Below, piece after piece: positions 11,245-63,624 of a DNA stretch of 64,000 nucleotides (the stretch's first letter is position 1; each line of letters begins with the position of its first letter). The translations under genes and the position numbers were made by a program. Below the pieces are notes generated by a model, which saw only the letters and a list, made by a program, of their open reading frames with translations, searched no databases and had not been told where the DNA came from. Source of the DNA: Prosopocoilus inquinatus (Eukaryota > Arthropoda > Insecta > Coleoptera > Lucanidae); the NCBI GenBank assembly GCA_036172665.1, contig CM069877.1, positions 20,485,001 to 20,549,000 of the forward strand, given 5' to 3'.

Positions 11245-13260
11245 AAAGATTTTGGAATCTTCAAAAACTTCCTAATGTTGCACGTCCTTTAACTTATGAC
11301 GAGAAACACTGTGAATCAATTTTCAAATCAACTACTGCTAGGTTACCTAGTGTAAGGTTTTGTGACAAACTTCCTTTTCGTAAAAAGAGACCAAAGTTAG
11401 GAGCGTCTCATTAATTAGCTCTCCGACGTTTTTTTTGTTTCTCGAGAAAAAAACTTGCCTATGAATCTCTGGGTCATTTGGAAAAAGCTCTGATCAATCC
11501 CAGTTCATTGAACTTTGAATATTATATTATACCTCATCATGGCATCTGGCAACAGGGTCCTAATAACAAGAAACTACGCGTTGTTTACGACGCTTCAGCT
11601 AAAAGTGACAACGGAGTTTCTTTAAATGAAATCCTCCACATCGGCGCTTCTCTTCAAAATGATATTAGGTACACAGGTGTTCAATAAGTTCAAACTTAAT
11701 CGCTATGTACTGACGGCTGACATCGAAAAAATGTACCGTCCTCCAGATCATCGTAAGTATCAAATGATCTGAAAATTTTGTTGCAAATCGTTTTTGATTG
11801 CAGTGCTTTGACAGCAAGCATGGCCGCCTTGCATGGGCGACTTATTATGTAGCAAACCCGCTTCAATTTATCTATCCTACTGCAATGTCAGGTCAAAAAG
11901 CGATCGTAAGATATAGCTGTTTTATTGTTTATCAAATGATCATTTGGCGAAAATCACAGAGTGAACCAATTAAGTTGTATTCCTATTATTTGAAAACTGT
12001 GACATACGGAGAATCTTGGTCTTCATATTTTGCTCTCCGAACAATTCAAGGATTAGTGCATCTTGAAGGAGCAAATGACCCAAAAGCTTTTAACAACAGA
12101 TACGTCAATGATATAATATTCGGTCATAATGACATCAAAAAGCTTTCTCTGATTCAATCCGAGATCATCGAATTATTCAAACTCGGTGGTTTTGAATTAA
12201 AAAAGTGGTCATCCAATGAACAATTTCTTGTCATTCTCACACAATTCTCTCACACTGATCTAGTAAATCCTCTTCTCTTTTCCGATAAAGCTGATCTTAC
12301 CGTAAAAATACTAGGTATCGCTTGCCATCCAGTCAATATATTTTCATATCATTTCTTTATTCCCCAAATGTCTTCTTGGACGAAACGTAGTTTTCTTTCC
12401 GAATCGGCTCGGTTATATGGCCCTCTTGGATGGATTTCACCTGTCATTCTCAAATTTATATCAAGATCTCAAGAAACTTGGGTAAGACAACTTGATTAGT
12501 TAATAATTTTCTCAATGAATGGAAAATTCTTCAAAGTGAAATCGAATTACTTCAGAATTTACAAATTCTTCGCTACTTAAACAATCCTACTGATACAGCT
12601 TCTCAAAGACTTTCGCCTTCTCAAATAATTAATTGTTATCTATGGTGGTCCGGTCCTGAATTTAAAAAAAAAAAACCTGAATTTACTCTTCCATTAAATA
12701 AATCTTTTACTACTGCTGATGAAGAAATTCCCTGCCATTTGCATACCACATCCTTTGAGTCTAGTTTTTGAATTAGTTTTATAGAAAGGTTCTCTAATTT
12801 TAATCGCATAGTTAGGACTGCTACTTACATATTTCGTTTCAAACATCTCTTTCGCAATAAGCATTTTATTCATCTGTTGTTCTCAGTACTGAAGAAATCA
12901 AGAAATCTTTTGATTTCTTGATAATTCAATTCCAGTCTTATTAATTCGGTAAGAAAATTGCACAAATCAAATCTAATCAACCTCTATTAAAATTCAGCAA
13001 CATTCACACTCTTTCCCTTCTTACAATTAGGAACTTAGTCCTAGAATTCTGGCATAAGTGGCGTGATGTATACTTGGATATTTTAATGTCCAAATCAAAA
13101 ATTCCTAATGTAGGTGCTATCGTTCTCATCAAACGCTCATTTGATTCTCCCCGTTTTTGGCAAATAGGCAAAAAACAATGCGAGTTGTTGAGATTAAAAC
13201 TGCAGGAGTAGACGAGATTCATACGTAACTTAATACCCTTTTTATACGAGCATCAACGGC
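11240..13260 (+). pseudogene. BEL/Pao retrotransposon pol remnant
   Basis: Plus-strand pieces, in order: LERFWNLQKLPNVARPLTYD and FRKKRPKLGAS (region before RT); HLEKALINPSSLNFEYYIIP then HHGIWQQG (11478 onward) and KLRVVYDASAKSDNGVSLNE (the BEL RT start, with VVYDASA); YVLTADIEKMYRPPDHRKYQ (RT palm aspartate). After a 160-bp insertion come LVHLEGANDPKAFNNRYVND and GGFELKKWSSNEQFL (RT end); SESARLYGPLGWISPVILKF (the BEL-typical LGWxxP segment); then, much degraded, DILMSKSKIPNVGAIVLIKR (DUF5641-like C-terminus). The usual YVDD box reads YVND. The integrase core is missing between about 12900 and 13020. Many stops are present, so this is an old, deleted copy. Confidence 0.85.
11770..11929. mobile_element. 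160-bp retrozyme/Penelope-related insertion with 12-bp target duplication
   Basis: TATCAAATGATC occurs at 11758-11769 and 11930-11941, and the BEL/Pao RT reading continues across the two copies. The insert contains, in reverse orientation, the tail seen after the hammerhead motif at 15419 (ttgcaaatcgtttttgattgcagtg). It also contains, in forward orientation, ctttgacagcaagcatg.ccgcc and the conserved core atcctactgcaatgtcaggtcaaaaagcgatcgta. The perfect 12-bp duplication is typical of retroposition rather than cut-and-paste. Confidence 0.85.
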
Positions 13261-26769: not shown

Positions 26770-27560
26770 ATCAGAACATTTTACTTGAACTACTCGTTGT
26801 CCTTGATCGGTAGCAAACATAACTTATTAATGGCTCGCTTCGTCACTCCCGAACTAGTTTGCACTGTTGCTGCACGTATCGCACCATCTGATCCTGGATG
26901 AACCTCCACGACACGGGCTGAGATCCAGAGATGCGGTGGAGTACCATCCTCCTTGATAATGACCAAGTTGCCAGGTTGTAGAATTGGTCCAGGGTTTTTC
27001 TGCCATTTCCTCCTTTCTTGTAGCTGGCTGAGGTATTCCTTTGACCACCTGGTCCAGAAGTGCTGCTTCAATTGCTGAACATGTTGCCATCGAGATAGCC
27101 GGTTTAACCTTAGCCCTGTTAATTTTGGCTCCAAAATTTCAGTGAGGGGTTCACCAATGAGAAAGTGACCAGGAGTGAGGAAGGATGGATCGTTAGGATC
27201 ATATGACATTGGAGTAAGAGGACGGGAGTTTAATACTGCCTCTATTTGAACAAGAAATGTATACAATTCTTCAAAGGACAAGTGGGCATTGCCCGCGATA
27301 CGTTTTAGATGGTTTTTGACTGACTTTACCGCCGCTTCCCACAAGCCTCCGAAATGTGGAGATCGCGCCGGTATGAAGTGCCACTGAATGTTTCGCTCAG
27401 ATAAGTAGTTGAGGATCATTTCTTGCTCAGTATCTTCAAACAACTTCTGCAACCGTTGTAGTTCCTTATTCGCCCCAGTAAAGTTGGTGGCATTGTCTGA
27501 ATAGATGTGTGATGGGTAAAGGATGGAGGAAAATAGCCCGTCCAGTCTCCCACATACCGA
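26770..27560 (-). pseudogene. BEL/Pao pol remnant: integrase C-terminal half plus DUF5641
   Basis: Minus-strand translation is open for about 250 codons. It starts SSILYPSHIYSDNATNFTG (second catalytic aspartate, DNATNF). It continues IQWHFIPARSPHFGGLWEAA, with the integrase glutamate in GLWEAA. Then come AVLNSRPLTPMSYDPND and the DUF5641-like end (LSRWQHVQQLKQHFWTRWSK, PGNLVIIKEDG, APVVQT-like tail). Upstream, a stop at about 27565 and loss of RT show that the element is truncated at its 5' side. Compared with the copy at 11240 this one is younger and lacks the parts kept there. It is followed by the LTR at 25974-26734. Confidence 0.88.
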
Positions 27561-28407: not shown

Positions 28408-28745
28408 AATTAGAGTAAATCAAATAATACGGAATTAGGTATTGGTCGGTTGTCTGAATTCATTAAATTGTTTTTATTTATCCGAATAAAAATACTTTTG
28501 TAAGCATTTAATTCCCTATTATTTGAAACTTCCTTAATGAGTTTTAAATTATCCTTAATAATACTGTGTCCTGTATTGTAAATATGTTGTGCAACACTAG
28601 ATTTCTCAAACATATTATGCCTGTAGTGACTTAAATGTTCTTTAAAGCGTGTCAATATATTTCTTTTTGTTTGTCCAATATATTCACTAGTACATTCGTT
28701 ATACTTAATTTCATAAATTCCAGATTTCTGTTGGGTTTCCCAATA
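28408..28745 (-). pseudogene. Penelope-like element ORF, GIY-YIG endonuclease end
   Basis: The minus strand reads ETQQKSGIYEIKYNECTSEY then IGQTKRNILTRFKEHL, then SVAQHIYNTGHSI. This gives GIY and YIG spaced as in GIY-YIG nucleases, the following arginine (TRFKEH) and a histidine-rich segment. This is the C-terminal endonuclease of Penelope-like retroelements. The reading ends in a normal stop at 28407-28409. Upstream of the GIY the frame is lost and no RT is visible. A retrozyme-family fragment lies 40 bp away at 28784. Confidence 0.82.
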
Positions 28746-28783
28746 AATTCTTTAAAAATCCAATCGTAAGTTTTGGGTTTTGG

Positions 28784-31029: not shown

Positions 31030-31345
31030 GTTGGAAGAGACGTTATGCTTCAAGAACACTCAGTGAAACTGAAAAGAAGTATTCAACAATTGAAAAATTG
31101 AAAAGGAATTACTAGCCGTAATTTGGTCAACGAAGTATTTTAGACCATACTTATATCGACGTAAATTTACTTTATATACCGATCACTGACCTTTGGTTTG
31201 GTTAAACTCTTTAAAAGAGCCTAACTCAAAACTTTCAAGGTGGAAAATTAAATTAGCCGAATATAACTTCGAAATAAAATATAAATGAGGAAAATATAAT
31301 TGCAACGCAGACGCATTGTCAAAAATAAAAATCAACGCCATAGAA
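31030..31345 (+). pseudogene. Errantivirus (Ty3/gypsy) RNase H remnant
   Basis: Fragments: YASRTLSETEKKYSTIEK, then [42 protein letters not shown] and CNADALSKI. These are the RNase H glutamate and aspartate blocks and the NADALS tether typical of gypsy-type pol. One frameshift and two in-frame stops are visible. Protease, RT and gag are absent, so the provirus is truncated on its left side. Confidence 0.82.
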
Positions 31346-32548
31346 ACGGAATCTATGGCAAATAACATCAGTGATGACAGTGAAGAACTTTTAAGAAATA
31401 TTATGGAAACGGGACAAACAGAAGTTCCTCAAGAAACTCTGGGCGCAGGACAAAGCCAAACAGAAAATGGGAATAACGAATTGCAGGATACAATTCATTC
31501 AAACGAAAATAAAGAACCAAAAACTACAATACCTACAATGGACGAAGCAATTGATATTAAAAATCCTCAATATTTTATTGAATATGCTTATTTAAATGAA
31601 GTGAAAGTGTTGTTCCGCTTAGATCAAAATTAAAAAAAATTAGGAAGTTCACATACCTCGCGAAAATAACACTCAACAAATATTTGAATTTATGCGTGAA
31701 TATATGACAACCGGTAAACATTATCTTTATTTTGAACAGGATTCACTCTATAAAGAATTTTGCCAAGTTTATTTAGAAAATTTTAATGATAATAGTCCGA
31801 AATTATACCGTTGTTTAAGAAAAAGAACTATCACGAAAGGAAGACGAACCATCGTGGGATAAAAGAAACATTATCGCAGTTACAACGTCGTTATTACTGG
31901 CCGAAAATGAAAGAAACGGTAACGATTTACATAAAGAGATGTGAAAATTGCAACAGAAGCAAATATGATAGGCAAATGCCTCACCCGGAATTAAACATCA
32001 GTGAAGAAAAAAAAGATAAACCCTTCCAAAAAGTACATTTAGATACGTTTGTTATAGGGGGTAAAATTTAGTTGACAGCCATTGATGCTTTCACCAAGTT
32101 TGCACAAGCAATTTCAATAAAAGTAAAAATGCAGTTGAATTAGTGGAGGCACTAATAACGTATTTTTCGCTTTACGGAGTTCCGGAAGAAATTGTGATGG
32201 AGGGACTGAATTTACCAATGATTTAGTCACGGAATTATTAGATAAACATAAAGTCAAAACTCATATAGCAACGCCATATAACCCAAATTCAAACGGTAAT
32301 GTTGAACGATTACACTCGACTTTACTAGAACAAATGAGGTCACTAAAAAACAATACAAGGACGACGATACTGAAAAATTAATGAAATTGGCGATTATAGC
32401 ATATAATAGTATAACACACACAACCACAGGGTTAACTCCACTTGAATTAATTTTAGGGCACACTAAAACACGTGATCCTTTTGATGTTTGTTACGATAAA
32501 CAATTTTACAATAATTATTTAACTAAACATGTTAATCGATTAAAAATT

Positions 32549-32984
32549 AATCACAAAGCAACACAAAACCTGTGGCTGTAATCCAAATAAATAGTGAGAA
32601 AACCCCTCGACCACATTAATTCACTGAAAGCGAATACGTATTTCGGTAACGAAGTTACCATCTTCAGCGCTAAACTGATATTAAACTTTAAAACAACAAA
32701 TAAACTAAACTAGACTAGCCGCACTCCCCCCCTCACTTTCTTTGTACCGTATTATGCATGCAAAGCAAACCGGGATTCTTCGAAAATCTAAAGGTCGAAG
32801 AGGCAAGAAGCGGTCGGCCCGGACTTCTCAAAATTCATTAATCTATTCCTATTTTTGTGAATCTCCAAGCTTTCGAAAGAATCTAGGTTTGTTTTGTTTG
32901 TTGTGAAGATGGTAACTTCGTTACCGAAATACGTATTCGCTTTCAGTGAATTAATGTGGTCGAGGGGTTTTCTCACTATTTATT
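32549..32984. mobile_element. 436-bp Penelope-type foldback with 13-bp target duplication
   Basis: TCGATTAAAAATT occurs at 32536-32548 and 32985-32997, and the integrase reading resumes in frame after the second copy. Inside, about 80 bp at 32585-32665 (aaataaatagtgagaaaacc ... aagttaccatcttc) is repeated in inverted form at 32906-32984. The long, perfect duplication and inverted partial copies of one terminal sequence are typical of Penelope-like insertions. No protein is encoded. Confidence 0.82.
32629..32671 (-). ncRNA. Hammerhead-like motif in the Penelope-type foldback
   Basis: On the minus strand: stem I AGCG (32671-32668) pairs with CGCT (32632-32629); core CTGAAGA; one extra U; stem II GGTAAC/GTTACC with a TTC loop; GAAA; self-complementary TACGTA as stem III; then U and U at the cleavage position. 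The layout matches a type I hammerhead with a loopless stem III. The unpaired U after the core is a deviation. The inverted copy at 32906-32945 keeps stem II, GAAA and stem III but has lost the CUGA part. Confidence 0.5.
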
Positions 32985-33329
32985 TCGATTAAAAATTCTC
33001 TATGAAAGATTGGGAGATGAAATCCAAAGTCAAAAAGAAAAGGTAATTACAAAACGCAACGAAAAATTGGGATCAAAACCAGGCTGGACAAGAAATATAC
33101 GTAAAACGTCTGGCTAAACATAAAAATAAAATGACACCAAAGTGTTCAGGTCCGTTTGAAATTAAGAAATTATTTGCTAATGGAACTGCTATAATAATTG
33201 ATAAGAAAAATAAAGATAGGAAAATACATGTCAGAAATCTGAGATATGGTATTTTTCCAGATTTCTCAGTGAAAATGTCGACCGATCAGCCGGGTACATT
33301 GAACTAAACAAAATACAATCTACAAGAGG

Positions 33330-34470
33330 CTTATTACCCTTTAGATTAGGCACTGCATGGAATGTCGATACGTATCAAAAGCTAGTAGAATAGAAAATAA
33401 ATATGATCATTTAATCCATATAATTATGCAAGCAGAAGACTACAAAGAATTAATCAATTATCAAGAAATTTTAAAATTTAACATAAAATTAATGAATTAT
33501 AATGTTAAACAGCTTTCACCTGGAAACAGAACTAGGCGAGGGGCTGTAAATTTTGCAGAAAGTATTATTAAAGCAATAACGGGAAATCTTGATAACGAAG
33601 AAGCAGAAAGATATGATGCTGCTATTAATGATTTAATTAATAATCAAAATAAAATAAAAACTATTATTGAAAAACAAATAACTTTAACAAGGGATGCGAT
33701 AAAAACATTTAATAACACTACTGAAATGATACAATATAATCAAATTTCGTTACTTTCTAGATTAAGATATGTTGAACGCAAAATGAGCGAGGTAAACGAT
33801 AAATTAGCAAAACAAGAATTGCAATTGCAAACTCACGCGATTTTTAATCAAATGATATTTATAACGAACACAATCAATAATTTATTAGAAACAATAACAG
33901 TAACTACATTCGCAAAAATGCAAATATTCCATTCATCTATAATTAATCTTAATGATCGATGAACAGATTATTTCTAATAAAGTACCAGTAAAGTACTTGG
34001 CATTGAATGTTCATCAACTAAGTAACTTATTAAAGATAGAAGCTTATATTAAAAATCACATCATTACTTTTGTGATCCTCGTTCCTTTAGTTGAACCCGA
34101 ACCCTATAATTATTATCAATTACATTCCTTGTTAATACCTGTCAATAATTCCTATTTCAAGTCAATAATACCTTCTTCTAAATATTTAGCGATCAATGAG
34201 TTAAAATTTGTACAATCAGACAATAAGTGTCACGAAATAAATTTAAAAGAATACATCCACAAGGAAAGCAGACTAATAAGTGAAAATTCGCCTTGCGAAT
34301 TTCAATCACTTACTTATTCACTCACTTATTCCAATAAATATGAAACTTGTTTTCAAATTGCTGAAGGTTTAAAAGAAATAAAAATCACAAAATTAGTTGA
34401 TAAACAATGGAGGTACCAAGTGGTACCAAAAAACAGCAAAATTCATAAAAGATGTCAAAAGGAACAAGAA
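33330..34470 (+). pseudogene. Errantivirus env remnant, first part
   Basis: Open frame 33357-33962 contains NRTRRGAV, a furin-type R-x-R-R cleavage site followed by a hydrophobic-leaning helix (NFAESIIKAITGNL). It also has long helical stretches (VERKMSEVNDKLAKQELQL) like the F-type envelope proteins of errantiviruses. A frameshift at about 33955 moves the reading to the frame 33952-34491, which carries KYLALNVHQLSNLLKIEAYI and cysteines at CHEIN, PCEFQ and TCFQI. The reading is then cut by a LINE insertion and resumes at about 35464. Envelope proteins of this group mediate cell entry in infectious members; this copy is broken. Confidence 0.82.
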
Positions 34471-35460
34471 GTTCCTTGGTATAATTTTTGATTCAAAACT
34501 TCGTTTTAAAGAACATGTATCAATGCTTATTAAGCGTGCATATAGTAAACTTAAATTACTGTTTCCCAGCAGACACTTATTCAATCGTAAATTGAAAACA
34601 ATGTTATGCGAAACATTAGTCTTATCTGCATTTAATTATTGTGACTCCTTGTATGGACCCTGCTTGGACAGCATTGATAAAAGTAGAATTCAAAGAGTTC
34701 AAAATTCTTGCCTACGTTATATATTCGGTATTCGTAAATTCGAACACATATCACACACTTTCCACGAAGCAGGCTGGTTAAACATGGAAAATAGGCGACA
34801 CTTACATGCTGCATGTTTGTTTTATAAAATTTTAAAATCACAAAAGCCACCATATTTGTTTCTGAAACTTCGTTTTAGAACCGACGTCCATAATGTCAAC
34901 ATTCGTAGGAAAGACTTACTCACGCTTCCACGTCATAGAACCGTATTTTTTGAGAGATCTTTTTCATATAATGTTGTAAATGTTGTAAATCGTCATTTTA
35001 CATTATTTAAGAGAAGCTCATTATTAAATTTCAAAATTGCACTGCATGCTAAGCTTATGAGGGCGCAATCGTTGATGTGAGTAACAATTACAACCTTAGT
35101 CAATCAAGCGACTCTTTGTATATATGTCTGTATATTGACTTTGTATATATGTCTATATTTTCTGCTACAATTTAACGTTAATTAGGTACGTTACTGCAAT
35201 TTAAAGTGAAAAGTCGTGGTCCGGAATGAAAACCAGACAATAGGTCTGATTCCGCACCAATTGGTTCTCTATCTTACTTTATTATTATTATTATCATTAC
35301 TGTTATCATTATTATTATTTTCTTTAATGTTTTTACTTAAATATTGATACCTGTTTTGATATATACATATATATGTTACCTTATTAATTACTTTTGTCGT
35401 TATTGTATGGAGTTGAGAACCAATAAAGACACTTTATTATTTATTATTATTATTATTATT
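34465..35460 (+). mobile_element. 5'-truncated LINE inserted in env
   Basis: Frame 34397-35080 reads, from about 34465, NKKFLGIIFDSKLRFKEHVS, then MLCETLVLSAFNYCDSLYGP, IQRVQNSCLRYIFGIRK and HEAGWLNMENRRHLHAACLF. This is the region after the RT catalytic blocks plus the C-terminal domain of jockey/CR1/RTE-type LINEs, ending in a stop at 35078-35080. About 380 bp of 3' UTR follow and end in a (tta)n tract at 35440-35460. The N-terminal 70 aa of this open frame are env sequence, so the ORF is a chimera. Target duplications could not be identified. Confidence 0.85.
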
Positions 35461-48665: not shown

Positions 48666-48991
48666 TGTGGCGCGCCAACTGACTTAGCGCAAGGCGTCAA
48701 GAAGTCGGTTCGCTGTTATGTGTCATCGGCCGTCACGCGACCGGGGCCTACATCGAACAAACTAGAATCTTCCAGCGTACAGACTTCCAGACGGCAGCAA
48801 ATGATATAAAATGGCCCGGAGTTGACTCACCAGGCAGTCGAATTCGAACAGCGAACGTCGAAGTTAGATTTTAGTGTGAAAATAAATTATTACAAATAAA
48901 TTAGTTTTTAAGCTTTATTAAATTACGGTTAAGTTTTTATCGAGTGTTTTATTCGTTTAAATAAATAAACTCAAACCCTAGAAACGTAACA
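48666..48991 (+). mobile_element. 5' LTR of the Ty3/gypsy element
   Basis: 326 bp, TGTGGCGCGCC ... AACGTAACA. A TATA-like atgatataaaatggc at about 48801-48815 and AT-rich aataaattattacaaataaa at about 48880 suggest promoter and poly(A) signals. Only base 48833 differs from the 3' LTR. Confidence 0.95.
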
Positions 48992-48992
48992 G

Positions 48993-49010
48993 TGGTGTCG
49001 GTGTGCGGGT
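48993..49010 (+). promoter_or_regulatory. Primer binding site candidate
   Basis: TGGTGTCGGTGTGCGGGT begins one base after the 5' LTR with TGG, as expected for pairing to the CCA end of a tRNA. The tRNA identity was not determined; TGGTGTC would fit a tRNA ending GACACCA, such as some leucine tRNAs. Confidence 0.6.
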
Positions 49011-49091
49011 TTGTGCAAATAAATAAACAATTTAAAGTAAATTAAATTTAATCAGATTATTAAATAAGTACAGTATCGGAAAAAAAAAACA

Positions 49092-50726
49092 ATGGCTACG
49101 AGAAAAGTGTTGTTGAAAGACTTAAAAGTGGCCGAATTAAAAACCGAATTGGAAGAACGAGAGTTAGAAACCTGTGGTTTGGAAGGCGCACTTCAACAGC
49201 GTCTCCGATCCGATTTGTTGACAGCTGGCGAAGATCCAGAGACCTTCCTTTTCGAAATTTCGTGTGGTCCCGCCGATTTTAATAAAATCCTGAAAGATGA
49301 ACTTCGAGAACAATCCAGAAATTTAGAGCAAAAGCTTCTAGAACAATCTGGAAATTTCAAGGACGAACTTCGAGAACAATCCAGAAATTTGGACGAGAAG
49401 TTTCAAGAACAGTCTGGAAATTTAGAGAAGAAACTTCTAGAACAATCTGGAAATTTCAAGGACGAACTTCGAGAACAATCTGTAAACTTCAAAGACGAGT
49501 TGCGAACTAAATTAATGGAACAATCCAGAAATTTAGAGGAGAAACTTCTAGAACAAGCTGGAAATTTCGACAAATTACAGAATAAATTGTTGGAACAATC
49601 TAGAGACTTAGACGAGAAATTTCGAGAGCAATCCAGAAATTTCGACGAGAAATTTCTAGAACAAACAAAAGGACTTGAAGATCAACTAGTGGTAAAAATA
49701 TCGGAAGAAACAAGGAACTTGCAAGAAAATGTGGAAGAAATAATATTCCAGCAGGATAATAAAATCAAAAATCTGGAACAAATCATGGCGGGGTTGCGAG
49801 TGTTCGGGGATCAGCCACCAGTAGAAACACTAGAAAATAATGAAACCCGAATTGTGGAAGGACCAACAGAAAATTCGAAATTTAAAGTAAAACCACCAAC
49901 GTTCGATGGAAAGTCTTCTTGGCCCAACTACTTCAAACAGTTCGAAGCGGCAGCAAAGGCGAACAGATGGACGGCCAGCGAAAAAGCCACTTCGTTAATT
50001 GTGGCCTTGAGAGGGGACGCAATCGATGTGCTACAGACGATGCCGCAAGAGGAACAAGAAGACTTCGACAAGCTTGTGAATAGGATGGAAATGCGTTACG
50101 GACAGGCCCATCTGACCGAGGTACACCATGCGCAGTTGAGGAATCGCTGTCAGAAATCCGGAGAAAGTCTTCAGGAATTCGAAGCGGACGTAGCGCGGCT
50201 GGCCCAGTTGGCATATCCCACAGCTCCTGTTGAATTCCTCAAATGTTTGACGGTGCAGACCTTCATAGATGGAATCCGTGACCCAGACAACCAGCAGGCA
50301 TTGAGAATGACCCATCCGAAGACGTCCAAGAACGCATTGGCTTATGCCTTGGAATTTGAAGCGGCGAGACGAGTTTCAAGAGGGCATGTCAAGGTGCGAG
50401 CGGCTACGGACTTCCAAGAGAAAGAATCCGCTAACTCCAAGGTGGGATCTGCTATAAAGGAGCGACCCAGGGAATATACCACCGCCGAGGATGTTCGCCG
50501 CATTGTGGAACAGGTCTTCAAGCAGAAGAAGCCCCTGGTGTGGCCAGGAGGAAGGACATGTTCGCAGGCGATGTCCAAAGCCCAGACAGGACCCAAGGAA
50601 GCCACAGTTAAACTAAGCCGGGTCGGTACAGAGGGGCGAACGTCGACCCGTATTCAAAGGCCCCCAAAGACAAGTAATATCCCTACGGCAGTTAACCAGC
50701 AGTGTCTTCGTGGATGTTACCATTGA
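49092..50726 (+). CDS. Gag-like protein with SAP-like domain and 11-residue coiled-coil repeats
   Basis: 544 codons. Residues about 8-42 (LKDLKVAELKTELEERELET ...) fit a SAP DNA-binding helix-extended-helix. Residues about 70-197 are eleven or so hendecads built on ELREQSRNLDE and KLLEQSGNFKD, encoded by 33-bp repeats, which predict a long coiled coil. Residues about 262-400 (PPTFDGKSSWPNYFKQFEAA, MEMRYGQAHLTEVHHAQL, SGESLQEFEADVARLAQLAY) are the retrotransposon Gag capsid region that forms the particle. The frame has no CCHC zinc knuckle; a knuckle-like stretch sits in the +1 frame at about 50530-50580. The tail from about 50540 on (VWPGGRTCSQAMS...) therefore may be out of the original frame. 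The chosen ATG follows an A-rich leader. Confidence 0.85.
   Translation: MATRKVLLKDLKVAELKTELEERELETCGLEGALQQRLRSDLLTAGEDPETFLFEISCGPADFNKILKDELREQSRNLEQKLLEQSGNFKDELREQSRNLDEKFQEQSGNLEKKLLEQSGNFKDELREQSVNFKDELRTKLMEQSRNLEEKLLEQAGNFDKLQNKLLEQSRDLDEKFREQSRNFDEKFLEQTKGLEDQLVVKISEETRNLQENVEEIIFQQDNKIKNLEQIMAGLRVFGDQPPVETLENNETRIVEGPTENSKFKVKPPTFDGKSSWPNYFKQFEAAAKANRWTASEKATSLIVALRGDAIDVLQTMPQEEQEDFDKLVNRMEMRYGQAHLTEVHHAQLRNRCQKSGESLQEFEADVARLAQLAYPTAPVEFLKCLTVQTFIDGIRDPDNQQALRMTHPKTSKNALAYALEFEAARRVSRGHVKVRAATDFQEKESANSKVGSAIKERPREYTTAEDVRRIVEQVFKQKKPLVWPGGRTCSQAMSKAQTGPKEATVKLSRVGTEGRTSTRIQRPPKTSNIPTAVNQQCLRGCYH
49299..49682 (+). repeat. 33-bp tandem repeats in gag
   Basis: Diverged 33-bp units (for example gaacttcgagaacaatccag with aaatttagac, and aagcttctagaacaatctgg with aaatttcaag) encode the hendecad repeats. 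Two units were lengthened by 3-4 residues (RTKLMEQ, DKLQNKLLEQ). Confidence 0.85.
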
Positions 50727-52701
50727 TGACATTCCTCACACCATGTTGTTGGATACGGGTGCGACGAAGACCATCCTAAGACCCGACGTAATTAAGTCAT
50801 CTGGACGCACCGAGCCGACCAAGTGGAGACTGAAAACTGCAACTGGAACATCAGCAACTGTCCACGGTGAAGTAGAAGTTATCATCACCATTGGTTCAAC
50901 TACAATAAAACACCGTGCACTGGTAGCAGACATAGAGGACGAGGCAATTTTGGGCATGGACGTCATGTGTGCCCACGGGTTTCAATTGGACTTAAAGCGT
51001 GGCGTGATGGCGGTCAATAATGAGGAGTTGGTTCTACATCAACGAGGAGACGTGGCCGCTCGAGTAGTCCTCTCTGAAGACGTTGTATTACCCAGCAGGA
51101 CTGAGGTTATCGTCGACGCAAAACTGAACGGTGTTTTTCAAGATGGGCAGGTCGTTATGGTTGAACCTAATACAGATGATCAGAAGATTGGAAGAGGAGT
51201 CCTCGTTGGGAAAATGTTGTTGACGGCGAAGAAGGAAGTACCTGTCCGCCTGATGAACGTCAATTGTTTCTCCGTTAATATCAAGAAAGGAACCATCTTG
51301 GGAAGCTGCACCATGGTGTCCTCCATCTCCCGCCACCTTGAAGCAAAAGTGCCAGAAGCGAAAGTCCCAAGGAAATTATGGGAAATGGTTATGTCAACAG
51401 CCCAGGAATTGACTCCAGACCAGAAGACAAAAGCGAAGAACCTGATCGGCCGCTATCAAGATGTATTTGAGATAGAAAATGGATCCAAGGGAAGAACTGA
51501 TGTCGTGAAACACAAAATAGAGACTGGAGAAGAAAGACCTATCCGTCAAGCTCCAAGGCGATTACCGTTGGCGAAGCGTGAGGAAGCGGAACGCATTATT
51601 CGCGAGATGGAAAAGGATAATGTAATAGAACCATCAAGCAGCCCGTGGGCGTCACCAGTAGTGCTTGTGAAGAAGAAGGATGGGTCCACCAGGTTCTGTG
51701 TAGACTACCGGTTACTCAATAATGTCACCAAGAAGGACAGCTATCCCCTGCCACGGATTGATGATACCCTGGACACCCTGGCCGGCTCAAAGATCTTCTC
51801 AACTTTGGACTTAAAGAGTGGATATTGGCAAGTGGAGCTGGCGCCCGAAGATCGAGAAAAGACGGCGTTTTCCATTGGTATGGGTCTGTGGCAGTTCACA
51901 GTGATGCCATTCGGATTATGTAATGCCCCAGCGACATTCGAGAGGTTAATGGAGACGGTTCTGAAAGGTCTGTCCTGGACAACGTGCATGGTGTACCTTG
52001 ACGACATAATTGTCGTGGGAAAGACGTTCGACGACCCCCTAAGGAACCTGGAAGGAGTGTTCCAGCGGCTTCGCGGAGCTGGACTAAAGCTTAGCCTCAA
52101 GAAGTGTCACCTGTTCCAGAAGGAAGTGAATTACCTGGGGCACATTGTTAATGGAAATGGAATCGCCGTGGACCCTGTGAAGATTCAGGTGGTGAAAGAC
52201 TGGCCAACTCCCAGAAATAAACACCAAATAAGGAGTTTCCTTGGCCTGTGCACTTACTATCGGCGCTACGTTCCTGGATTTGCAGACATTGCTAAGCCGT
52301 TAACAAAACTCACTGAAGAAGGTCGTCCATTTGAATGGGACCAACAGTGTCAAATTGGCTTTGAACAACTAAAGCAGTACTTGATTAGTGCTCCTATTTT
52401 GAATTATCCTCTCCCGGAAGGCAAATTCGTCGTGGACACAGATGCTAGCAACGTTGGGATTGGTGGCGTACTCTCCCAGATACAAGAGGGGCAAGAGAAG
52501 GTGATCGGCTACTTCAGTAAAGTCCTATCAAAGCCGGAACGAAACTATTGCGTCACAAGAAGGGAATTGCTAGCCGTCGTAAAAACGATAGAACACTTCT
52601 ACAAGTACTTGTATGGTAGACGCTTCCTGCTGAGGACCGACCACGCCACTCTAAAATGGCTTCTCCGTTTCAAGAACCCAGAAGGGCAAGTTGCACGATG
52701 A
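50617..52701 (+). CDS. Pol, first part: protease, reverse transcriptase, RNase H (ends at an in-frame TGA)
   Basis: The frame is open from 50617, directly after TAA at 50614-50616; the first ATG is at 50710. It overlaps the gag frame by 110 nt and is in the +1 frame relative to gag, as in Ty3. Numbering from the ATG at 50710: protease LLDTGATKT (DTGA at residues 15-18); RT with DYRLLNNVTKKDSYPLPRID, LDLKSGYWQVEL, MPFGLCNAPATFERLM and catalytic YLDDIIVV at about 429; RNase H with VVDTDASNVGIGG at about 574, TRRELLAVVK and RTDHATLKWL. The products would cut the polyprotein and copy the RNA into DNA. Translation stops at TGA 52699-52701, where gypsy-type Pol normally has tryptophan, and continues in the same frame into integrase. 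Confidence 0.93.
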   Translation, partial: AGSVQRGERRPVFKGPQRQVISLRQLTSSVFVDVTIDDIPHTMLLDTGATKTILRPDVIKSSGRTEPTKWRLKTATGTSATVHGEVEVIITIGSTTIKHRALVADIEDEAILGMDVMCAHGFQLDLKRGVMAVNNEELVLHQRGDVAARVVLSEDVVLPSRTEVIVDAKLNGVFQDGQVVMVEPNTDDQKIGRGVLVGKMLLTAKKEVPVRLMNVNCFSVNIKKGTILGSCTMVSSISRHLEAKVPEAKVPRKLWEMVMSTAQELTPDQKTKAKNLIGRYQDVFEIENGSKGRTDVVKHKIETGEERPIRQAPRRLPLAKREEAERIIREMEKDNVIEPSSSPWASPVVLVKKKDGSTRFCVDYRLLNNVTKKDSYPLPRIDDTLDTLAGSKIFSTLDLKSGYWQVELAPEDREKTAFSIGMGLWQFTVMPFGLCNAPATFERLMETVLKGLSWTTCMVYLDDIIVVGKTFDDPLRNLEGVFQRLRGAGLKLSLKKCHLFQKEVNYLGHIVNGNGIAVDPVKIQVVKDWPTPRNKHQIRSFLGLCTYYRRYVPGFADIAKPLTKLTEEGRPFEWDQQCQIGFEQLKQYLISAPILNYPLPEGKFVVDTDASNVGIGGVLSQIQEGQEKVIGYFSKVLSKPERNYCVTRRELLAVVKTIEHFYKYLYGRRFLLRTDHATLKWLLRFKNPEGQVAR

Positions 52702-54990
52702 ATCGAACGACTTCAGGAGTACGATTTTGAAATTCAGCATCGGGCAGGAACTAGCCATCGAAATGCCGATGCTCTGTCGAGAAGACCCTGTGCCGAAGAC
52801 TGTAAGCACTGTAGTCGTTTGGACGAGAAAGTAGCCACGACTGCGAGGACAGCCATTGTTGATGACAAATGGCAAGGCGAAGAACTGCGAAGAGACCAGG
52901 AGAACGACCCGGATTTGAAATTAGTGCTAGAATGGAAAAGCAGGGACGCGAGGCCTACCTGGGAAGAGGTAGCACCATGTGCACCGTCCGTAAAATCATA
53001 CTGGGCGCAGTGGGACTCCATAGTGTTGGATCGTGGTCTTCTGAGACGAAGCATAGAGAATCAGGAAGGCATGGAACAGAAGACACAGTTACTGATCCTC
53101 AAGAATAGGGTGCCAGAAGTTCTGAGGGAACTTCACGATGGAACTTCCGGAGGGCATCTGGGAGTTAAGAAGACTATGGAGAAGGTGCGCGAAAGATTTT
53201 ACTGGGTGAACTGCAAGGAAGACGTGAAGGATTGGTGCAGAAAGTGTACAGTCTGCGCAGCCAGTAACGGTCCCCACAGGCGGGGTAAGGCTCCCATGAG
53301 ACAGTACAACGTTGGAAGTCCTTTTGAGAGAGTTGCCATCGATGTAGCCGGCCCGTTTCCAGAAACGAATGGTGGAAACAAGTACATCGTCGTGGTAATG
53401 GACTACTTTAGTAAGTGGGTTGAAGCTTACGCCCTACCTAACCAAGAGGCGGTCACTATTGCGGAAGTCCTTGTCAGGGAATGGATCAGTCGGTATGGTG
53501 CACCTATGGAACTGCATTCAGACCAAGGAAGGAACTTTGAATCGGCCTTGTTCAAGAACGTGTGTACTCTGCTCGGCGTACGAAAAACTAGAACAACTGC
53601 ACTCCACCCACAGTCGGACGGAATGGTGGAAAGGTTCAATAGAACCATCAACCGACATTTGTCCAAGGTCGTTTCCAATCATCAGAGGGACTGGGACACG
53701 TACATCCCCCTGTTTCTAATGGCATACCGCTCATCTGTTCATGAGACAACAGGGGAGACGCCCGCGAAAGTGGTATTCGGGCGAGAGCCGAGACTGCCCT
53801 GTGACCTGAAGTTTGGTGTGAAGCCTGGCGAAGTCTCTGCCGACGAAGATTACGTGAGGAAATTACGCAGGAAAATGGATGATATCCACAACCAAGTGCG
53901 TCACAATATACAGACGGCCAGCGATCGGATGAAGGAGCACTATGACATCATCGCTCAACACGGGGGATACCAACCTGGAACACTGGTCTGGCTTTATAAC
54001 CCCCAAAGACGTCGAGGCCTCTCCCCAAAATTACAGACCTCTTGGGAAGGTCCTTACAAAGTGATGAAACGGATCAACGACGTCGTTTACCGCATCAAGA
54101 AGGTCCCCCATGGCAAACCCAAAGTAATCCACTTCAACCGGATAGCCCCTTACCATGGAGAAGCAGATGAAGGGACAGTACAAAGGGCGCAAGTTTCCGA
54201 AGTGAACTTCGAAACCTTCATGTCTCATCACGCCAAAGGAAGCAAGGCACGGTTTGGAGTGACCACGGAGAAGCAACAAGATCTCTTTAAAGTGCCACTG
54301 GAGTACAGTCTGGCCCACTGCGTAGCAGAAGACCTGAAAATGTCCAAAGGAATCGCTCAGGTGTTTAGGAAGAAATTTGGCCAAATCGAGGAGCTACGAA
54401 GACAGGATCCCGTGGTAGGCAAGAGCTTGCAGATCATTGATTCGACGGCAGATCGAAGGCGCCACGTGCATTATTTAGTCACTAAGAAGACATCAAGCGG
54501 TAAACCTGACTATGTGACTATGTGGAGAGCCCTATATAGCCTGAGGAGACAGCTAATAGAGAACCATCAGATGAAGTTAGCCATCCCCAAATTGGGCTGC
54601 GGATTGGACGGACTAGACTGGAGAGTAATCCGAAGCATGCTGGAAGTCATCTTCCACAGAACGGGAATTGAAGTCCTAGTCTGCAGCCACCACCCACAGG
54701 CAACAGTCAGCAACAGCAAAACCGTAGACTGTTACTTCTTCCAGACGGGAAGTTGCAAGAATGGGCCAGCATGTAGATTCCGACACCCTCCTTCAAGACT
54801 ATCACCAGGAACATTTCGAGACGAAACGTTTTTAAGAAGGGGGCAGTGTGGCGCGCCAACTGACTTAGCGCAAGGCGTCAAGAAGTCGGTTCGCTGTTAT
54901 GTGTCATCGGCCGTCACGCGACCGGGGCCTACATCGAACAAACTAGAATCTTCCAGCGTACAGACTTCCAGACGGCAGCAAATGATATAA
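52702..54990 (+). CDS. Pol, second part: integrase, TARG1-like macrodomain, CCCH zinc finger
   Basis: Same frame as the upstream part. It starts with the tether IERLQEYDFEIQHRAGTSH and NADALSRRP; the first ATG is at 52819 (numbering below). Integrase: HHCC region with LHDGTSGGHLGVKKT and CRKCTVC; D175 (IDVAGPFPE), D235 (HSDQGRNFES) and E271 (VERFNRT), giving D-x35-E; GPY motif in TSWEGPYKVM at about 409. After it, residues about 488-624 form a macrodomain: LAHCVAEDLKMSKGIAQVF, FRKKFG, HYLVTKKTSSGKPDY (Lys556 or 557) and IPKLGCGLDGLDW (Asp597). Then C638-x7-C646-x5-C652-x3-H656, a CCCH finger. The final 48 codons run into the 3' LTR. The macrodomain is not part of a standard Ty3/gypsy Pol. Confidence 0.92.
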   Translation: MERLQEYDFEIQHRAGTSHRNADALSRRPCAEDCKHCSRLDEKVATTARTAIVDDKWQGEELRRDQENDPDLKLVLEWKSRDARPTWEEVAPCAPSVKSYWAQWDSIVLDRGLLRRSIENQEGMEQKTQLLILKNRVPEVLRELHDGTSGGHLGVKKTMEKVRERFYWVNCKEDVKDWCRKCTVCAASNGPHRRGKAPMRQYNVGSPFERVAIDVAGPFPETNGGNKYIVVVMDYFSKWVEAYALPNQEAVTIAEVLVREWISRYGAPMELHSDQGRNFESALFKNVCTLLGVRKTRTTALHPQSDGMVERFNRTINRHLSKVVSNHQRDWDTYIPLFLMAYRSSVHETTGETPAKVVFGREPRLPCDLKFGVKPGEVSADEDYVRKLRRKMDDIHNQVRHNIQTASDRMKEHYDIIAQHGGYQPGTLVWLYNPQRRRGLSPKLQTSWEGPYKVMKRINDVVYRIKKVPHGKPKVIHFNRIAPYHGEADEGTVQRAQVSEVNFETFMSHHAKGSKARFGVTTEKQQDLFKVPLEYSLAHCVAEDLKMSKGIAQVFRKKFGQIEELRRQDPVVGKSLQIIDSTADRRRHVHYLVTKKTSSGKPDYVTMWRALYSLRRQLIENHQMKLAIPKLGCGLDGLDWRVIRSMLEVIFHRTGIEVLVCSHHPQATVSNSKTVDCYFFQTGSCKNGPACRFRHPPSRLSPGTFRDETFLRRGQCGAPTDLAQGVKKSVRCYVSSAVTRPGPTSNKLESSSVQTSRRQQMI
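54280..54690 (+). other. Domain: OARD1/TARG1-like macrodomain in Pol
   Basis: Family knowledge: macrodomains of the TARG1 (OARD1) type bind ADP-ribose and remove mono-ADP-ribose from acidic residues or deacylate O-acetyl-ADP-ribose, using a lysine and an aspartate. Here the ADP-ribose loop region AEDLKMSKGIAQVFRKKFG, the lysine block YLVTKK and the aspartate block GCGLDGLDW are all intact and in the expected order and spacing. The rest is inference: the protein could reverse host ADP-ribosylation or bind an ADP-ribose compound during replication. Confidence 0.85.
54730..54786 (+). other. Domain: CCCH zinc finger after the macrodomain
   Basis: CYFFQTGSCKNGPACRFRH has C-x7-C-x5-C-x3-H spacing, the pattern of RNA-binding CCCH fingers. 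The KNGPACRFRHP segment is very close to the usual signature. It may replace the missing Gag zinc knuckle as nucleic acid binder, but this is inference. Confidence 0.85.
54834..54846 (+). promoter_or_regulatory. Polypurine tract
   Basis: aagaagggggcag directly precedes the 3' LTR and would prime plus-strand DNA synthesis. Confidence 0.8.
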
Positions 54991-55172
54991 AATGGCCCGG
55001 AGTTGACTCACCAAGCAGTCGAATTCGAACAGCGAACGTCGAAGTTAGATTTTAGTGTGAAAATAAATTATTACAAATAAATTAGTTTTTAAGCTTTATT
55101 AAATTACGGTTAAGTTTTTATCGAGTGTTTTATTCGTTTAAATAAATAAACTCAAACCCTAGAAACGTAACA
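54847..55172 (+). mobile_element. 3' LTR of the Ty3/gypsy element
   Basis: 326 bp, identical to the 5' LTR except A at 55014. The pol reading frame extends 144 nt into it. Confidence 0.95.

Positions 55173-62245: not shown

Positions 62246-63624
<1,379 letters not shown>

Follow-up and report, generated by a model that had tools for sequence, protein, structure and literature searches.

A TARG1-type macrodomain fused to the Pol protein of a Ty3/gypsy retrotransposon in the beetle Prosopocoilus inquinatus

A stretch of 64,000 nucleotides from the lucanid beetle Prosopocoilus inquinatus (assembly GCA_036172665.1, contig CM069877.1, positions 20,485,001 to 20,549,000 of the forward strand; hereafter the window) contains, at 48666-55172, a Ty3/gypsy retrotransposon flanked by long terminal repeats (LTRs). 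The Pol protein of this element carries, after the integrase and in the same open frame, a macrodomain of the TARG1/OARD1 type, kept by selection. The domain is most likely a mono-ADP-ribosyl hydrolase.

Identity, copies and selection

When the Pol frame was compared with the sequences of the Protein Data Bank (PDB) using phmmer, the best match to window positions 54259-54681 was human TARG1/C6orf130 (2eee, E 4.5e-29). The top five matches were all human TARG1, and the next was an RNase III inhibitor entry (5m3i, 3.9e-6) labelled as the DarG macrodomain in the Foldseek output. The Pfam Macro profile alone did not reach the domain (16.7 bits versus a cut-off of 22), and NCBIfam alone gave a weak family match (42 bits versus a cut-off of 250). 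An AlphaFold2 model was obtained from an alignment of 31 rows (A3), with a mean predicted local distance difference test (pLDDT) value of 85; when the macrodomain was divided into 14 blocks of ten residues, 13 had values of at least 90 and the remaining one reached 89. Foldseek matched this model to TARG1 (4j5s; E 1.5e-16, template modelling score 0.93 by target), so that among solved macrodomains TARG1 was the closest in both sequence and fold. The initial annotation, made from the letters alone, had proposed an integrase running into a TARG1-type macrodomain with both catalytic residues kept. These comparisons, together with the trees and genome copies described below, bear that proposal out, the Pfam result notwithstanding. 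Its coordinates (54280..54690) were right for the domain but stopped short of a CCCH zinc finger.

In an alignment of 16 element rows and 42 cellular rows, the catalytic Lys and Asp, the Gly-Ile-Ala loop and Gly123 were all invariant. A motif count over 137 element proteins recovered LVTK in every one and the Asp loop in 136, the sole miss (P0120) being a protein without the matched stretch. Gly19 was substituted in all 16 element rows (Gln in 9, Arg in 4, Lys in 2 and Leu in 1); it was kept in 41 of the 42 cellular rows, the exception having Gln, as in the beetle TARG1 P0141.

The CCCH finger that follows the macrodomain matched PF00642 with 27.8 bits (cut-off 20.5), was poorly modelled by AlphaFold2 (blocks at pLDDT 51-60) and was found by motif in 130 of the 137 element proteins; the proteins in which the motif was missing (P0117, P0121, P0122, P0127, P0138, P0139 and P0166) include some short or odd gene models. 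The finger resembles those of CPSF30 and RBM22, two proteins of RNA processing, and its family profile also matches KIAA1064. An origin from CPSF30 was considered and is not proven: the score of 59 bits is a sum over five fingers, the best single one giving only 22 bits (independent E value 1.2e-3).

The arrangement is abundant. A search of the 650 Mb assembly that holds the window (the beetle's own genome) with the macrodomain plus finger returned 1487 first-look candidates, of which 150 were scored and found to be 98-100% identical. At least 150 places are therefore present, 147 of the 150 scored (window's copy counted) being free of stops. Neither outcome that the initial annotation had named as refuting its proposal occurred: the fold matches, and the 3′ extension is carried by 149 further scored places. 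A search with the Pol C-terminus yielded 180 proteins; the 120 listed were all from Aromia moschata or Molorchus minor, except P0001, P0008 and P0115. Proteins of Aromia and Molorchus, as well as P0001, P0008 and other entries, combine the integrase tail with the macrodomain and the finger. Gonioctena P0124 has the macrodomain and finger, without an integrase in the listed protein; so has Brassicogethes P0139, with one finger Cys changed, while Pyrocoelia P0122 has the macrodomain and 13 matched integrase-tail residues but no finger. These carriers are beetles of the Cerambycidae, Chrysomelidae, Nitidulidae and Lampyridae. Beetle proteins predicted as C3H1-type, Macro domain-containing or cleavage and polyadenylation factor may in fact be retrotransposon Pol.

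Selection was assessed in own-genome copies ranked by their integrase: 116 were scored and 20 fetched, and 18 were used to calculate the ratio of nonsynonymous to synonymous polymorphism (pN/pS), L176 (frame shifted) and L177 (which breaks off in the finger) being set aside. The macrodomain gave a pN/pS of 0.31 (18 nonsynonymous changes, one of them a stop, versus 16 synonymous), with a binomial p of 8e-4 that appears stronger than it truly is, since the test ignores transition bias. The Lys was kept in all 18 copies and the Asp in 17. Loci ranked by the domain itself kept Lys and Asp in 60 of 60 cases each, in a biased ranking that double-counted places and held 48 distinct sequences. Their pN/pS was 0.32 for the macrodomain and 0.21 for the finger (92 of 1128 pairs dropped), values biased for both regions and affected by duplicated loci; the integrase of the same set gave 0.39 (609 of 1431 pairs dropped). 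Across the element lineages, the 35 columns invariant in cellular TARG1 were 86% identical, versus 47% in the other 108 columns, a difference reached in 0 of 10000 shuffles. Constraint on the macrodomain is therefore shown.

Structure of the element and its surroundings

The element belongs to Ty3/gypsy by its LTRs, its target duplication (ATAT, ending the 5′ flank and starting the 3′ flank), its gag and the domain order protease, reverse transcriptase, RNase H, integrase (Table 1). Pol is read in two parts of one frame: the first, 50710-52701, runs from the protease through the reverse transcriptase to RNase H and closes with TGA, and the second, 52702-54990 (762 codons), resumes at the end of RNase H and continues through the integrase, macrodomain and finger. 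As the LTRs are nearly identical, while Pol is interrupted by the TGA and the gag frame lacks a CCHC knuckle, the window's copy is taken to be young but damaged. The knuckle was found by motif in 10 of the 137 listed element proteins. Within gag, at 49303-49686, there are eight overlapping repeat copies, spaced mostly by 33 nt and with the look of a coiled coil.

Table 1. Features of the retrotransposon, in window coordinates
Feature	Position	Strand	Basis or remark
5′ LTR, TG...CA, 326 bp	48666..48991	+	1/326 mismatch to 3′ LTR; ATAT flank
gag open reading frame	49092..50726	+	SAP-like start and PNMA-like part, both under Pfam cut-off
Aspartyl protease	50713..50967	+	PF13650 and PF13975 above cut-off
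Reverse transcriptase	51667..52149	+	PF00078, E 1.7e-36
RNase H	52336..52698	+	In-frame TGA directly after, 52699-52701, in the window's copy
Integrase: H2C2, rve core, p58_C/GPY	53104..54150	+	PF17921, PF00665 and PF22938 above cut-off
Short helix ahead of macrodomain	54208..54231	+	AlphaFold2 model; alignment with beetle TARG1 P0141 spans the helix
TARG1/OARD1-type macrodomain	54259..54681	+	PDB sequence search, model, Foldseek, alignment
Catalytic Lys (human position 84)	54484..54486	+	16/16 element rows, 42/42 cellular rows
Catalytic Asp (human position 125)	54607..54609	+	16/16 element rows, 42/42 cellular rows
CCCH zinc finger, C-x7-C-x5-C-x3-H	54730..54786	+	PF00642
Polypurine tract AAGAAGGGGGCAG ahead of 3′ LTR	54834..54846	+	Sequence
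3′ LTR	54847..55172	+	326 bp, likewise TG...CA; open frame stops inside it at 54990

Elsewhere in the window, 31103-34488 (+) holds the remains of another retroelement, with RNase H and integrase parts matched by tblastn of P0001 at 31103-32119, and two open reading frames with similarity to the Baculovirus F protein (an errantivirus-like env), of which only the second was above the cut-off. BEL/Pao-type pieces lie at 26793-27560 (-) and 11798-12496 (+), with DUF5641 (E 1.1e-36) and the end of a Peptidase_A17 domain just under the cut-off. An open reading frame at 28413-28751 (-), similar to GIY-YIG nucleases and just under the cut-off, is possibly the end of a Penelope-like element, and a trypsin-like serine protease exon at 62692-63336 (+; PF00089) probably belongs to a host gene.

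Origin of the domain and other element types

Trees were built from 65, 72, 61 and 56 rows and rooted at the midpoint, except for the 72-row quick tree, which had a prokaryotic outgroup; the joins given here carried the mark of support unless stated. The macrodomains of window-type elements formed a single clade (100/99 in the 65-row tree, 99 by the Shimodaira-Hasegawa-like approximate likelihood ratio test (SH-aLRT) in the 72-row tree, 99/97 in the 61-row tree and 100/98 in the 56-row tree). The nearest cellular row was the Aromia TARG1 P0141 (100/96 in the 65-row tree; SH-aLRT 94, without the mark, in the 72-row tree), which aligns across the helix ahead of the domain and shares the change of Gly19 to Gln. 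In the 72-row tree, a split with a value of 99 set 12 of the 13 prokaryotic rows apart from all others; the long bacterial row L084 lay among eukaryotic rows. The window's domain joined the Pyrocoelia domain and one more domain (97/85, 61-row tree).

The host's own TARG1 (C5:3752700, L121) has two tandem domains, largely in one open frame; over 418-2166 of L121 they are joined by a long, low-complexity, in-frame linker, and the second is interrupted by a 57-nt GT...AG intron. It grouped with the Aromia TARG1 (100/86, 61-row tree). The element macrodomain lacks this intron, which makes capture from a spliced mRNA likely; the simplest reading is that a spliced beetle TARG1 transcript was captured by the element. 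The missing intron and the position of beetle TARG1 as nearest cellular kin both support the cellular capture suggested by the initial annotation.

Two side observations concern the TARG1 rows. Residues 200-343 of P0141 have no Pfam match and by eye might be a decayed second macrodomain. Further, P0128, P0130, P0131, P0135 and P0214 are near-copies of another TARG1-like domain on short contigs, some with odd shared tails; they may be a further mobile family, and the rows tested fell outside the window's type in the 65-, 72- and 61-row trees.

Three more types of element with a macrodomain (B-D), the window's being type A, came up when P0141 and a stretch of type C were used as queries against the own genome. 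In type B (L127, L160 and L169), an aspartyl protease and the macrodomain share a single frame; in L127 the reverse transcriptase was read downstream, with 54% identity to that of the window across 158 residues. L127 and the place of L160 were found at 43% identity to P0141, and L169 was placed by the type C-stretch search and the tree. As in the window, Pfam Macro remained under its cut-off in these three, the identity of the domain coming from the alignment with TARG1. In type C (L161, L162 and L164-L167), gag knuckles and a protease precede the domain, which exceeded the Pfam Macro cut-off in L161, L166 and L167; by eye, a linker of protease-reverse transcriptase type follows it, a position upstream of the reverse transcriptase being observed only in L127. 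In type D (L168), the macrodomain follows integrase p58_C, both scoring above cut-off, and ends in an acidic tail; across 187 residues, the integrase shows 42% identity to that of the window. Both Lys and Asp are kept, by eye, in all seven B, C and D macrodomains of the 56-row tree, and no finger was seen by eye in the stretches read of these types. In L128, a further copy of type B, Gly123 is replaced by Arg, and a type C copy (L170) is decayed, with several stops and no Asp loop. The initial annotation was right about the fusion but overlooked the finger, the damage to the window's copy and these further types.

Types A and B were sisters (99/92 in the 61-row tree, 97/82 in the 56-row tree) and, with P0141 and the domains of the host's TARG1, made up a joint set (100/91 and 99/95, respectively). 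In the free tree, A+B, C and D stood apart from one another, C and D among other TARG1 rows; in approximately unbiased (AU) tests on the 56-row tree, neither a single origin of all types (p 0.145) nor the union of A with D (p 0.105) was rejected. The domain is thus seen in four types of element and at two places in Pol. ADP-ribosylation might be an insect defence against LTR retrotransposons, with several Ty3/gypsy families having gained TARG1 repeatedly, at two Pol sites, as an eraser; this broader proposal is tentative, and we lean towards doubting it. Alternatively, the domain may have been captured once and then passed from element to element.

Possible role and comparison with known systems

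The best overall explanation, which we favour with a little more than even confidence, is a captured and selected TARG1 hydrolase that acts with the integrase against host ADP-ribose. A beetle Ty3/gypsy lineage would have acquired a TARG1 gene of beetle type in spliced form, which would now be produced at the C-terminal end of Pol, attached to the integrase and mostly followed by the CCCH finger. Retained as a Lys/Asp-type mono-ADP-ribosyl hydrolase and carried with the integrase, the domain would strip PARP-added ADP-ribose from element proteins, chromatin proteins or nucleic-acid ends during reverse transcription and integration. The parts of this proposal differ in strength: the macrodomain is probably active as an enzyme; that it acts with the integrase, in the particle or the nucleus, seems somewhat probable; that its purpose is to counter PARPs is plausible, with our confidence just short of even.

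Passages of PMC7050489 and PMC6582358 describe human TARG1 as removing ADP-ribose both from Glu/Asp and from the ends of nucleic acids, and macrodomains of viruses as reversing the ADP-ribosylation of RNA. The catalytic pair is Lys84 and residue 125, printed as Glu125 in the passage of PMC7050489, while the sequences analysed here have Asp. According to a passage of PMC4245714, Drosophila has PARG and TARG1, and Tribolium has proteins like PARP7, PARP11, PARP12 and PARP13; insects thus have ADP-ribose marks and erasers of them.

Several points weigh against a captured, selected hydrolase. Apart from the neglect of transition bias noted above, the finger plus tail of the integrase-ranked copies did not deviate significantly (8 versus 6 changes, pN/pS 0.40, p 0.08), no difference was found between shared and singleton variants, and the macrodomain evolves faster than the integrase (47-60% versus 63-78% identity to the window, 70 or more aligned integrase residues being required for the latter). 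The damage to the window's copy, by the TGA in Pol and the missing gag knuckle, is a further point. With the prokaryotic outgroup, the join to P0141 fell barely under the mark of support, and the 61- and 56-row trees were rooted at the midpoint. Finally, a chikungunya preprint (PMC12632316) reportedly finds that binding by the macrodomain, not hydrolysis, matters in mosquitoes, in which case hydrolysis need not be the activity selected.

The macrodomain might instead be a reader that, in the manner of a chromodomain, guides the integrase to broken DNA or to ADP-ribosylated chromatin by binding there. In types A and D the domain lies on the C-terminal side of the integrase GPY module, where chromoviruses have their chromodomain; this would suit such a role, as would the binding of ADP-ribose by TARG1 (PDB complexes 4j5s and 2l8r). 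Reading alone, however, does not need the two catalytic residues, and their retention favours an eraser over a pure reader; moreover, in types B and C the domain lies behind the protease (before the reverse transcriptase in L127) and off the integrase, which speaks against a role solely in the targeting of integration. We therefore consider a reader unlikely. About as improbable, in our judgement, is that the domain removes ADP-ribose not from proteins but from the ends of the element's nucleic acids, at RNA phosphates or on cDNA. It would agree with the action of human TARG1 and viral macrodomains on RNA and DNA ends, in the passages cited above, and with the resemblance of the finger to those of CPSF30 and RBM22. 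The best single finger gave 22 bits, however, and the finger motif was not found in 7 of the 137 element proteins or, by eye, in the B, C and D stretches.

A passenger, that is, transduced host sequence spread with the element to no function, would explain why the macrodomain is less conserved than the integrase; it is made very improbable by the constraint seen within the own genome and across element lineages, by open frames persisting at 47-60% identity to the window's macrodomain and by the several element types that carry the domain. A false fusion, through a host TARG1 adjoining a retrotransposon or an assembly error, had no finding in its favour and can be dismissed for practical purposes, since 150 scored own-genome places share the extension, proteins of Aromia and Molorchus as well as P0001 and P0008 have the full arrangement, and the host TARG1 sits elsewhere.

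In vertebrates, viral macrodomains drew attention to PARPs as antiviral factors. Insects are not known to have interferon, and the retention of TARG1 in abundant insect retrotransposons, at two places in Pol, would be independent evidence that ADP-ribosylation bears on retrotransposons. The copies also provide a natural set of TARG1 variants, with the TARG1 of the same host genome for comparison, and allow an integrase accessory domain to be tested as eraser or reader.

Among known systems, DarG antitoxins and phage or bacterial TARG1-like proteins share the ALC1-like class with the element's domain, and the family match is weak, as given above. A search of IMG/VR with a single protein gave 12 pattern matches, none of them confirmed, and one with an alignment (A1) gave 63 viral and 27 bacterial loci; by tblastn, none of these 90 matched the window's integrase or its protease-reverse transcriptase-RNase H part. 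The 63 viral-collection contigs (L001-L063) carry TARG1-like macrodomains of 29-45% identity without such retroelement genes. The macrodomains of alphaviruses and coronaviruses match the model distantly by fold. The hydrolases of Venezuelan equine encephalitis virus (VEEV) and SARS are termed MACROD-like (PMC6582358), and TARG1-like homologues are said to occur in numerous viral genomes, few keeping all residues essential for TARG1 activity (PMC4245714); here, the TARG1 catalytic pair is kept and the domain is fused to retrotransposon Pol.

Chromoviruses are Ty3/gypsy elements with a chromodomain C-terminal to the integrase. They resemble the present element in having an extra domain there, but one of another fold; here it is a domain of enzyme type, and a CCCH finger accompanies it. 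Another kind of retroelement with a macro domain is found among the epsilon-like endogenous retroviruses of fish (Basta et al. 2009, cited in a passage of PMC4977317); these are, however, vertebrate retroviruses in which the domain is described as an additional open reading frame, its class being unstated in that passage. Among the matches listed in searches of the open-access literature, none showed a TARG1 macrodomain in a Ty3/gypsy element. Cellular TARG1/OARD1/C6orf130 shares with the element's domain the fold, Lys84 and the Asp at position 125, the GIA loop and the GCGLD loop, and differs in that the latter is fused to Pol and substituted at Gly19. What is unusual here is the class of the enzyme, its abundance and its presence in several element types.

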